Source: Nitrospira sp.
GTDB lineage: Bacteria; Nitrospirota; Nitrospiria; Nitrospirales; Nitrospiraceae
Assembly: GCA_019636875.1 (NCBI GenBank)
Contig: JAHBWR010000001.1
Location: 1 to 64,000, forward strand
Length of the DNA: 64,000 nt
Direction of reading: 5' to 3'
The translations under genes and the position numbers were made by a program. A model generated the notes under the pieces. The model made no database searches, was not told where the DNA came from, and saw only the letters and a program-made list of their open reading frames with translations. Each line of letters begins with the position of its first letter. Position 1 is the stretch's first letter. Positions 42,172 to 46,676 of this stretch are shown here, in pieces.

Positions 42172-43359
42172 TTACCACTTGTCTGAAAATCTACCACTGA
42201 CGTCCTCTCCGATGAAGTTATGCAGAATCTGGCGTTGCAAGTCCGTGAGTTCTCCATGTCCAGCTTCTCGTTCTCCAGAGGCTGTGAGAGAGTCCTTGGA
42301 TGGCGGTCTCGATCGCGCGAGCAACACGTCATCCAATGCCTCGTGAGAGCTGTCGACATCTTTTTGGATGGCCACCAGCCGCTGAAGTCCGAACAAGGTT
42401 CTGGTGATTTCAGTATGCATCGCGTTTGAACTGGCCCCATAGACCAGCGAATTCCAAAATTTGGTCTCGCTGGCTTCGGGGATGGCGAGGGTCGCATAAG
42501 CAGTCAACTTTTCGATCAATGCTGACTCGGTCCGTTCAAGCCCGTCATAGGTGGGAATCGAGCGTTCAATGGGACGCTGGGAAAGGACCCGCATCGTTTC
42601 TTTCCAAACATCCTGGGAGGGGACGAGATTCCCGCCTGTACGAGGGTCTGACCCTGAACATTTGGCCTGGACAGCCAGGAGATACTGAGCCAAAAACTTC
42701 ACCTTGCGGGCGGCAAGCGTGCCGGCAGGAATTCCCCAAATGTGACCGATCTCATGGTCCTGCAGCGTGGTCAGATCCGACGATTGCTGTTCCCGTTCCG
42801 CGAGTGCCAAGCGCTTTTTGAACCGCTCGGCGAAACGAAGCTGGGTTTGCAGTTCAATGACGAGGCGATGGTTCTGGTACTCGTGGGGGGTGATCTCCTC
42901 TTTGTCCCAGGCTTCCTGCAACAGGCGCAGTGTGGTTGATGGAACAGCCGAACGTGCCTGTGCCTTCAAAGTGAGAACCGTCTCGGAGGAAACCCCGCGA
43001 TCGACCAGAAGTGCAGCTGCACGAGTCGCGAAGGCGTCGGCCATGAACGCGAGATGTTCGAGCGCGACGCATTGCAGCCAGGTTCTCTCCCGTCGGAGTC
43101 GAACTCGTCGTCGATATTCATTCCGTCGTTCAACCATCGCGGTGATGGATTCCTGGGTCATCGTCGTGACGGGTTTTGTCCCAGATACACAACGAGGGTC
43201 AGGACGATCAGCGACCATGAAGAGAATTTCGTCGTGCGTCACATCGAGATATTGGAGCAACAGAAGCCGAAGAATAATACGGCCTTGGATGGGTAAGCCG
43301 GCAATGGTCTCTTCGATCAGGTCTGCGGTCAACGTCGGTGAACTCAAAGTTTTCGTCAT
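42172..43359 (-). CDS. unknown 395-residue protein with sigma-region-4-like HTH segments
   Basis: I do not recognise a named family. It is soluble and mostly helical and rich in Arg, Leu and Glu, without a signal peptide. Residues about 200-225 (QDHEIGHIWGIPAGTLAARK) resemble the HTH of sigma-factor region 4 (EIA-ILGIP-GTV-SR), and residues 22-50 (LPIQGRIILRLLLLQYLDVT) resemble the preceding helices of such a domain. HEIGH is also a metallopeptidase-like string, but no third ligand follows. A cluster of TGACG repeats lies directly before the start. A DNA-binding role is an inference only. Confidence 0.65.
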   Translation of the reverse strand: MTKTLSSPTLTADLIEETIAGLPIQGRIILRLLLLQYLDVTHDEILFMVADRPDPRCVSGTKPVTTMTQESITAMVERRNEYRRRVRLRRERTWLQCVALEHLAFMADAFATRAAALLVDRGVSSETVLTLKAQARSAVPSTTLRLLQEAWDKEEITPHEYQNHRLVIELQTQLRFAERFKKRLALAEREQQSSDLTTLQDHEIGHIWGIPAGTLAARKVKFLAQYLLAVQAKCSGSDPRTGGNLVPSQDVWKETMRVLSQRPIERSIPTYDGLERTESALIEKLTAYATLAIPEASETKFWNSLVYGASSNAMHTEITRTLFGLQRLVAIQKDVDSSHEALDDVLLARSRPPSKDSLTASGEREAGHGELTDLQRQILHNFIGEDVSGRFSDKW

Positions 43360-43900: not shown

Positions 43901-44623
43901 TTAGCCCCCCAGCGTATCGAGGGTTTCCTTGAGACTTTTACGGATGCAGGTGAAGATCGGGGTGTCCCGCAACGTATAGCGCGAGCCCTCCGTTTCGCGG
44001 AGCGCCATCACTAGATCCAGAAAATCTTCAGGTTTGTCGCTCTCAAATGCGACGACCCATTCTTGATCATCCAACCCGAAGGAATAGGTGGTGTTCAGCT
44101 TGACGGAAGGGAATCGATGCCCGACCTCGATATGCTCATCCATCATTCCCTGGCGAGCTGCTTTTGTCAGCAGAAACCATTCTCGCGTTTTCAAGAAGGG
44201 ATACACAAAGATGTATTTGCCCTTTCCAGGCACCACGGTCAGGCGCTTTCCCTCCTGTCCTGCATGTGAATGGTGATCTACATAGACCGACCGCTTGGTC
44301 ATTGCCAGATAGGAATAGGGCGTCGACAAATACTGTCCGAGCCCGGATGCGAGGATTTTAGCACTCATGTCCTGAAACAAATCCAGGTCATAGCTGATAC
44401 GCCAGAGCATAAAATCACAGTCCCCACGGATACCGACCGCTGAGTAAGGAACTACCAACACTTTGCCGTTGAAGTCTTCCACGGCTCGTAGAAATTCTTG
44501 TTTGCCTTGAGTGCGCACATCCTCCGGCAGGCGGCGCCACGCTGGATCCACTTTGTAAAAGATGAAGTTTACGAACTGCCGACGAGGCGTCTGGGCAGGT
44601 TGGGGTGTGTCCGGAGTCGACAT
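43901..44623 (-). CDS. chlorite dismutase/HemQ-family heme protein, distal Arg not conserved
   Basis: 240 residues of the Cld fold. The C-terminal half has YPFLK (Tyr141, Lys145), proximal heme ligand His164 in MMDEHIEVG, then SFGLDDQEW. True chlorite dismutases carry Arg 13 residues after the ligand and firmicute coproheme decarboxylases carry Gln; here the residue is Asn177. The Tyr and Lys used in coproheme decarboxylation are present. I therefore favour a HemQ/ChdC-like or other peroxidase role over chlorite breakdown. A good AAAGGAG ribosome site precedes the ATG. An upstream TTGACA is present, but its -10 partner is weak. Confidence 0.85.
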   Translation of the reverse strand: MSTPDTPQPAQTPRRQFVNFIFYKVDPAWRRLPEDVRTQGKQEFLRAVEDFNGKVLVVPYSAVGIRGDCDFMLWRISYDLDLFQDMSAKILASGLGQYLSTPYSYLAMTKRSVYVDHHSHAGQEGKRLTVVPGKGKYIFVYPFLKTREWFLLTKAARQGMMDEHIEVGHRFPSVKLNTTYSFGLDDQEWVVAFESDKPEDFLDLVMALRETEGSRYTLRDTPIFTCIRKSLKETLDTLGG

Positions 44624-44768
44624 TCAAAGCTCCTTTAGATAGGTAGAAGTAAAACGCATATTTTGTTTTTCTTTCGTTTAGCATTTCCGCTTCAGTCTTG
44701 TCAACGGGAAGACTAGGCTGAGAAGCGTTCATTGACAGGCTCTCTTCGGTTCTGTTAGTCGCAATCGC

Positions 44769-45365
44769 ATGAACTGTGATTGGCGGTGGGCAATAGGATG
44801 GGTATCGGCCTGCTCATGGTGCTTCGTCAGTCCGGTGACAGCAATTGAAGTGCACCCATCACAGACGAAAATCCAGACCGCTCTCGATCGAGGGAGAAGC
44901 GCTGGTGCTCAGCATCAGCCGCCCGAGAGATGGTATGCCCGCTTCGGAGGCACTGGCGAGCTGGAAGCCGGTGGGTTCCTTCTGACGAAACTTGGCAGCT
45001 TGTCCGTGATGGCCACGCATATGGCGAGGCGTGGACTGGACCCAAGTGCGACGGACATTGCTCAAGTGGTGGGGACCCCGACCATGCTGGTGAATGCCGT
45101 CATATTCGGTGATGATCCATCCTTTGCGACGGATAGTTATATGTTGTTTGATCAGAAGGGAAAGACCATCAAGCCTGTCATGGTTCGTGTCGACGGCCAA
45201 GCTGAACGGAGTACTGCATGGCCCGAAAAGCCCCGATTCAAGGCAAAGATTGTGGCGTCTTTCGCCTATACTAACTTCGATCCCTCGGCAACGACAACCA
45301 TTACGCTGTATCCGGCGCACGGTGGAGAGATCAGTTTCTCTCTCGACTTTGCACAGATTGAATAG
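44769..45365 (+). CDS. exported protein of unknown function
   Basis: 198 residues. The first ~25 residues form a signal peptide (IGWVSACSWCFVSPVTA), and the rest is beta-rich with no recognised domain. The segments VVGTPTMLVNAVIFGDDPSF and YTLYPA-like ends suggest a soluble periplasmic domain. It is divergent from the Cld-family gene and lies 15 bases before cinA. Confidence 0.65.
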   Translation: MNCDWRWAIGWVSACSWCFVSPVTAIEVHPSQTKIQTALDRGRSAGAQHQPPERWYARFGGTGELEAGGFLLTKLGSLSVMATHMARRGLDPSATDIAQVVGTPTMLVNAVIFGDDPSFATDSYMLFDQKGKTIKPVMVRVDGQAERSTAWPEKPRFKAKIVASFAYTNFDPSATTTITLYPAHGGEISFSLDFAQIE

Positions 45366-45380
45366 AACGTTCTCCTGGCC

Positions 45381-46676
45381 ATGTCTATGCGTGCACGAAA
45401 CGATCGGTCCTTCATTGCAGGAACCATTGCGATCGGCTCCGAACTGCTGGTGGGAGGCCGAACAGACAGCAATTCACTCTTCATCACTGATGTTCTTGGT
45501 GCGATCGGTGTAGAAGTGCGGTTTAAATCCATTGTGGGTGATAATCGATCGGATATCGAGAGGGTCTTGAAGACAGCCTGTAACCGTGCCGGAATCGTGA
45601 TAGTGACGGGAGGGCTTGGCCCCACTGTCGATGACCGTACCAGGGAGGCCATCGCAGCCGTCACTGGGGCCCGACTTGCACGCCGCAAAGAGGCCCTTGA
45701 AGGAATGAAGGCACGGTTGGCGCAGTGGGGACGAATACCGAATAAAGGACAGTTGCGACAGGCGCTGATTCCCTCCCAAGCCATTGTATTACCCAATCCG
45801 GTGGGGTCGGCGCCAGGTTTTTCGTTGGTGTGGCGTGGTACACACATTATTGCCTTACCCGGCGTCCCGAGTGAGATGCGTGCAATGGTTGAGCAGTCAG
45901 TGATTCCCTATCTGATTTCTCAACTCAAGCCTTCCAAGAGCCGAGGTCGGCAGCCTCTGACACGCCTGGTGTTTCACACGTGGGGTATGTCGGAAGCCGA
46001 CGTGGATGCCAAGTTAACAGGACTCATAAAGAAGAGTCTGCCGGTTGCTCTAGGGCTACTCGCGTCCCCAACAGGGGTCCTAGTGTCACTGACTACCGAG
46101 GCAGGACGGGCTCTCAAGGAAGATGCGTTGATATCATTGGCCGAGGAAGTGCGCACACGATTGGGTGAATGGATCTATGCTGAGGGACAGGATACGATGG
46201 AGGAGGTCGTTGGCCGACTCTTGCATGGGCAGAGACGGACCGTTGCGGTAGCGGAATCCTGCACCGGGGGACTCATTGCCTACCGGTTGACGCAGGTGCC
46301 GGGATCGTCCTCTTATCTTGATCGGGCGGTCGTGTGCTACAGCAATCAGGCAAAGATGGAATTGCTTGGTGTTCCGGAACATCTTTTACGCGAGCATGGT
46401 GCCGTCAGTCGTGAAGTGGCTGAGGCCATGGCCAAGGGGATGCGTGAACGAACCGGCGTGTCAGTGGCGTTGAGTGTCACAGGCATTGCGGGACCTGGTG
46501 GTGCGACCGAGACGAAACCAGTCGGCCTCGTGTATATCGGACTCGATGGTGGCAGAGACGACATGATGACCAGAGAGTTTCGATTCCACGGCGATCGATC
46601 CGTGATTCGACAGCGCGCCGCACAGGCCGCTCTTGATATGCTCCGGCGGTGGCTCATGAACAAAGGCAACCTATGA
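45381..46676 (+). CDS. cinA: competence/damage-inducible protein CinA (NMN deamidase-type)
   Basis: 431 residues. The N-terminal MoaB/COG1058 domain has IAIGSELLVGGRTDSNS and VTGGLGPTVDD; the C-terminal CinA domain has AESCTGGLIAYRLTQVPGSS and VSVTGIAGPGG. CinA proteins recycle NMN by deamidation (C-terminal domain) and hydrolyse ADP-ribose (N-terminal domain). cinA-thpR-recA is a known operon order; here recA has been moved 10 kb away. The stop overlaps thpR (ATGA). Confidence 0.93.
   Translation: MSMRARNDRSFIAGTIAIGSELLVGGRTDSNSLFITDVLGAIGVEVRFKSIVGDNRSDIERVLKTACNRAGIVIVTGGLGPTVDDRTREAIAAVTGARLARRKEALEGMKARLAQWGRIPNKGQLRQALIPSQAIVLPNPVGSAPGFSLVWRGTHIIALPGVPSEMRAMVEQSVIPYLISQLKPSKSRGRQPLTRLVFHTWGMSEADVDAKLTGLIKKSLPVALGLLASPTGVLVSLTTEAGRALKEDALISLAEEVRTRLGEWIYAEGQDTMEEVVGRLLHGQRRTVAVAESCTGGLIAYRLTQVPGSSSYLDRAVVCYSNQAKMELLGVPEHLLREHGAVSREVAEAMAKGMRERTGVSVALSVTGIAGPGGATETKPVGLVYIGLDGGRDDMMTREFRFHGDRSVIRQRAAQAALDMLRRWLMNKGNL

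Follow-up and report, generated by a model that had tools for sequence, protein, structure and literature searches.

A predicted coproheme decarboxylase of the chlorite dismutase family in a Nitrospira genome with a separate chlorite dismutase gene

Coproheme decarboxylases (ChdC, or HemQ) carry their catalytic Tyr in the motif Y-P-[MF]-x-[KR]. An active ChdC from a diderm bacterium is said to have been described by Pfanzagl and colleagues in 2018, in work that reportedly names the Nitrospirae and gives the motif as Y-P-M/F-X-K/R. According to a passage of PMC7611857, sequences of the chlorite dismutase (Cld) family that lack the Cld Arg turned out to be ChdCs, in monoderm and in some diderm bacteria. 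For diderm users PMC8819088 refers to Pfanzagl et al. 2018, and a 2025 review (PMC12670364), in an ambiguously worded passage, names N. defluvii as departing from the Gram rule. Members of the family other than Clds are frequently mis-annotated as Cld, as stated in an excerpt of PMC9751292.

The window analyzed here is a 64,000-nucleotide stretch of a Nitrospira sp. contig (JAHBWR010000001.1), and its features are listed in Table 1. The gene under study is an intact open reading frame of 240 codons plus a stop codon. Its product matched PF06778 (Chlor_dismutase) with 195.6 bits (E 8.2e-58; cut-off 25), which bears out the family membership proposed in an earlier sequence-only reading of this DNA. 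No signal-like stretch was seen by eye at its N-terminus. The closest solved sequences found with phmmer were actinobacterial ChdCs (9mhq, E 1.2e-24; 6xub, E 1.7e-21). The NCBIfam equivalog cut-offs for ChdC were not reached (HemQ_actino NF042928, 128.7 of 235 bits; PRK12276, 77.8 of 253); these cut-offs are the naming thresholds of two sub-models and not a biochemical feature of the ChdC family. From the sequence comparisons described below, we conclude that the protein is very probably a coproheme decarboxylase, which would carry out the terminal step of coproporphyrin-dependent heme synthesis in a Nitrospira-type diderm. The family, residue conservation, branch, pathway context, and purifying selection are established here, and the activity is predicted by homology to characterized ChdCs. 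The order of orf198 and orf395 around chdC and cinA was kept in most of the core loci examined.

Table 1. Positions of the chdC gene, of selected codons, and of neighboring features in the window
Feature	Coordinates	Strand	Basis
chdC (hemQ), predicted coproheme decarboxylase	43901..44623	minus	intact ORF, Pfam, alignments
AAAGGAG, Shine-Dalgarno-like sequence	44630..44636	minus	read from sequence; few bases before the chdC ATG
His118 codon, aligned to distal-base His118 of C. diphtheriae ChdC	44270..44272	minus	alignment
Tyr141 codon, catalytic radical Tyr of ChdCs	44201..44203	minus	alignment; role from a passage of PMC7611857
Lys145 codon, Y-P-F-L-K motif	44189..44191	minus	translation, alignment
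His164 codon, proximal heme ligand	44132..44134	minus	alignment
Leu176 codon, equivalent of Cld Arg173 / firmicute Gln	44096..44098	minus	alignments
Asn177 codon, one position past the Arg/Gln site	44093..44095	minus	translation, alignments
Gly213 codon, site of Cld proximal Glu (E210 of NdCld)	43985..43987	minus	alignment
orf395, downstream neighbor without Pfam match	42172..43359	minus	conserved synteny
orf198, divergent neighbor without Pfam match	44769..45365	plus	conserved synteny
cinA	45381..46676	plus	conserved synteny of core chdC locus

The sequence-only reading had named His164, Tyr141, Lys145, and Asn177, the last lying 13 residues after the His, and all four are present in the translation. 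It had also placed Asn177 at the site occupied by Arg in Clds and by Gln in firmicute ChdCs, and this assignment is off by one. The Cld Arg (Arg173) stood opposite Leu176 in a phmmer alignment to NdCld 4m09 and in an hhalign comparison of two profiles, both of which concern Cld only; in MAFFT alignments of 10 proteins and, with L-INS-i, of 170 distinct sequences, the firmicute Gln took the same place as the Cld Arg, opposite Leu176. In the branch that contains the window ChdC, the strand that follows the proximal-His helix is reached by a loop one residue shorter, so that the site lies 12 residues after the His, compared with 13 for Clds and for the firmicute protein; a count of 13 from the His thus misses the site. 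Measured from the site to the G of the GxDD motif further downstream, the spacing is a constant 7 across the 11 sequences listed. Since the alignments agree on the site and its spacing to GxDD is constant, Asn177 is the neighboring residue, and its candidacy as the distal residue was rejected. No Arg was found by alignment at the distal-pocket site, where the reading had said that an Arg would count against it; Leu176 is there instead. Ala, Leu, Gln, or Ser is reported at this site in HemQs in a passage of PMC4793301, so Leu176 is within the known range. Asn177 itself was found in all 62 distinct Nitrospirales proteins, in 78 of 79 actinobacterial ones, and in both sequences each from Thermomicrobia, Omnitrophota, and Bacillota metagenome-assembled genomes (MAGs); judged from these alignments, it is a normal, near-invariant residue of the actinobacterial/Thermomicrobia/Nitrospirales ChdC branch. 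In this branch, an active-site position is misidentified when it is located by a set number of residues from the proximal His.

The remaining active-site positions were compared in the same way. Every Cld and ChdC sequence compared had a His in line with His164, apart from those of one family of the phylum (f11, described below), in agreement with the proposed place of His164 as the proximal heme ligand. The segment Y141-P-F-L-K145 fits Y-P-[MF]-x-[KR], and the Tyr141-x3-Lys145 motif pointed out earlier is thus present; both residues are present in every one of the 62 distinct Nitrospirales proteins. In this set His118, His164, Leu176, and Asn177 were likewise invariant, and at position 213 there were 60 Gly and 2 Ala. 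The 12 Nitrospira Clds had Arg at the Arg/Gln site by construction, having been sorted from the ChdCs by that Arg, and at the other sites, which played no part in the sorting, they had Glu at 213 (12 of 12), no His at 118, and no Tyr at 141. The Tyr141 column held Ile, Leu, Met, or Val in these 12 proteins, and it is mostly Ile in Clds. Both Cld hallmarks sought in the alignments of the window protein, the distal Arg and the proximal Glu, were absent, their places being taken by Leu176 and Gly213.

Passages of PMC11761711 and PMC10427985 assign the role of distal base to His118 of C. diphtheriae ChdC. A His at the aligned position was found in all of the Nitrospirales, actinobacterial, Thermomicrobia, Omnitrophota, and Bacillota-MAG sequences examined, and in the 170-sequence alignment it was never found in the Clds or in the single firmicute protein. 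We consider His118 the likely distal base of the window ChdC. The loop that carries it had block-mean pLDDT values of 56–65, compared with a mean of 85.9 for the whole predicted model, so the placement of His118 in the pocket is taken from sequence. His120, a candidate from one phmmer alignment, was rejected because 118 is the His column invariant with the actinobacterial ChdCs; column 120 is Pro in all 79 of them.

Phylogenetic analysis was performed on 99 rows, with 16 of the 79 actinobacterial and 55 of the 62 Nitrospirales sequences retained and one Cld fragment (L108) omitted. In this family phylogeny, of the kind that had been proposed as a check, the window protein grouped with the ChdCs, and an SH-aLRT value of 99 supported its separation from the 15 rows on the Cld side. 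Long branches were flagged in this tree, and the firmicute row and the f11 proteins were placed with little certainty. In family f11 (loci L109–L115), 8 of the 10 genomes sampled had a PF06778 match; the six distinct sequences examined were all without the proximal His, and the one protein that was scanned (L112) has an N-terminal PCP_red domain. These proteins are possibly non-heme relatives. The best fold matches of the predicted model were ChdCs and Clds with tied scores (Z 24.8 to 9mhq and 24.2 to NdCld 4m05), and fold comparison was therefore set aside as a means of telling the two apart.

The genes of the source genome and its congeners define the pathway in which such an enzyme would act. 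In the source genome (G000) hemE, hemH, and hemY are consecutive on contig C2 (L051). Among the 79 congeneric genomes, the source genome included, profile searches found HemH (ferrochelatase) in 70 and HemY over its cut-off in 72, and found HemF in none and HemN over its cut-off in none; the same searches detected HemF in 3 of 14 controls and HemN over its cut-off in 3 of 14. The best HemN-like protein of the source genome is HemW, over the HemW cut-off. By gene content the host pathway is the coproporphyrin route, with HemH and HemY present and HemF and HemN absent, and the evidence is consistent across the genus. A ChdC-type gene or fragment was present in at least 77 of the 79 genomes, at least 71 by score and 6 as pieces; the only two genomes in which no ChdC type was found (G056 and G057) are each 78% complete. 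A loss of chdC in some congeners was considered and rejected, because pieces of the gene were present (G012, G019, G024, G030, G035, and G046). Split copies were read in G008, G012, and G018, and Ns lie inside the gene. In these draft genomes chdC is often an assembly break point or an N-filled gap (L219–L223, L205–L209, L213, and L216), probably as a result of strong conservation combined with duplication. The ferrochelatase of the source genome contains MAMGGP, with Met at the presumed discriminating site as mapped by eye, and looks PpfC-like there; this site is Tyr in firmicute CpfC, Phe in actinobacterial CpfC, and Met in human PpfC according to a passage of PMC10427985. A literature search for transitional heme pathways found none.

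The source genome has three PF06778 genes: the window chdC, a second chdC, and a Cld gene on another contig (C124). The product of the last (L003) has a signal-like N-terminus and matched the N. defluvii Cld 3nn1 with 325 bits (E 2.8e-96), so the genuine Cld of the lineage, to which the sequence-only reading had alluded, is a different gene from the window gene. One congener, with a genome of 2.0 Mb that is 99% complete, contains a Cld-like PF06778 remnant with in-frame stops (L108, on G030:C23). Among 89 sampled genomes of the phylum, only those in the family of the window and its sister family had the ChdC type, and both sister-family genomes sampled (G129 and G139) had ChdC and lacked Cld. 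The near-universal occurrence of ChdC, together with these two genomes without Cld, fits an essential late step of heme synthesis and not a function in chlorite metabolism.

The second chdC (L050:267–2044 on contig C158, a region that includes a Rieske gene) is intact, and its product is identical to that of the window copy at 211 of 240 residues (88%). Between the two copies pS was 0.77 and pN 0.07, with synonymous sites near saturation and few replacement changes; both copies are thus apparently under purifying selection. The second copies retained all catalytic residues, and only three positions separated them well from the core copies. Of the 15 second copies retrieved, 12 (L050, L052, L053, L054, L057–L063, and L066) are followed, after a constant 14-bp gap, by a gene for a Rieske/VanA_C oxygenase; L064, L065, and L067 are without it. 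A Rieske homologue with an E value of 1e-80 or better was found in 28 of the 79 genomes, and among the matches listed it adjoins chdC in about half of those 28. Other neighbors of the second copies encode a HalD-like 2OG-Fe(II) oxygenase, a small metal-binding protein (SMBP), and a CopD-like protein below its cut-off, and five loci have a gene for a giant multicopper oxidase nearby. It is conceivable that the duplicate was co-opted for a dedicated oxidative pathway, such as one that supplies or modifies a special heme, and not for bulk heme synthesis, with the window copy remaining the housekeeping one; we regard this as a speculative and rather unlikely proposal.

Other explanations of the window gene were weighed against these results. 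That its product is a Cld whose distal residue happens to be unusual is suggested by the shared Pfam family and by the fold score to NdCld (Z 24.2), but the Leu at the catalytic Arg site, the Gly at the proximal Glu site, the position in the tree among the ChdCs, and the bona fide Cld encoded in the same genome make it extremely improbable. It is very unlikely that the protein is a heme peroxidase or a heme-binding protein outside heme synthesis, with an AhbD-like radical-SAM protein performing the terminal step. A match to the AhbD model does occur in all 79 congeners, none over the cut-off, and the window protein falls short of the HemQ equivalog thresholds; nevertheless, the radical-SAM protein of the source genome (L092:1056–3461, on G000:C164) is below both the AhbD (317 of 500 bits) and NirJ2 (324 of 500) cut-offs and has an additional, C-terminal PCP_red domain, whereas the ChdC catalytic residues are invariant and the ChdC-type gene is as widespread as described. 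The radical-SAM gene adjoins a gene whose product has two PCP_red stretches and a rubredoxin-like one. A peroxidase role, which had been offered as one option, is also disfavored by a passage of PMC7611857 stating that ChdCs are not peroxidases.

A mixture of strains or an assembly error could in principle produce two chdC copies and make the window gene foreign to its genome, given that the genome is a draft of 199 contigs and 84% completeness and that in several relatives the assembly breaks at chdC. We consider this highly improbable, because the copies are near saturation at synonymous sites and lie in different neighborhoods that recur across many genomes. None of the points against a ChdC (scores below the NCBIfam cut-offs, the PpfC-like Met of the ferrochelatase, and the AhbD-model match) is strong enough to offset what the residues, the tree, and the pathway show. 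The earlier preference for heme synthesis over chlorite detoxification is thus upheld on the basis of Tyr141, His118, Gly213, the separate Cld, and the coproporphyrin pathway, and not by way of Asn177.

By homology to characterized ChdCs, the predicted decarboxylase would bind coproheme through His164. The loop residue His118 would deprotonate H2O2, like the distal base of the actinobacterial enzyme, and Compound I would then oxidize Tyr141 to a radical, which would remove the 2- and then the 4-propionate to give heme b and two CO2. Leu176, and not Asn177, is at the site of the Cld Arg and firmicute Gln.

These assignments remove a possible mis-annotation, since many such proteins are labeled 'chlorite dismutase', and tell apart two paralogous PF06778 families within one Nitrospira-type genome. 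They also give consistent genus-wide support for a coproporphyrin route to heme in a Nitrospira-type diderm lineage. Diderm ChdCs have already been published, and the window ChdC is an ordinary one that belongs to a known family and was to be expected in this lineage; its YPFLK fits the motif Y-P-M/F-X-K/R reportedly given by Pfanzagl and colleagues.

Compared with NdCld 3nn1 and L003, the window protein shares the Pfam family and the fold, but the Cld Arg, Glu, and Ile are replaced by Leu176, Gly213, and Tyr141. The firmicute ChdCs (Listeria 5loq and Geobacillus 5t2k) have in common with it the fold, the Tyr, the Lys, and the proximal His; their Gln site is Leu in the window protein, and the distal His is without an equivalent in Priestia, the sole firmicute sequence aligned. 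The actinobacterial ChdCs (C. diphtheriae 6xub and 6xuc; S. coelicolor 9miq) have the same fold (Z 24–25), the proximal His, the catalytic Tyr, an aligned distal His, the Asn after the Arg/Gln site, and the shorter loop from the His to the strand. The window protein differs from them in its diderm host, its overall sequence (approximately 25–30% identity), Leu in place of Ala, Ser, or Pro at the Arg/Gln site, Lys in place of Arg at 145, and a longer loop linking the domains. From these alignments, it appears to combine the distal His of the actinobacterial enzymes with a Leu at the Arg/Gln site.
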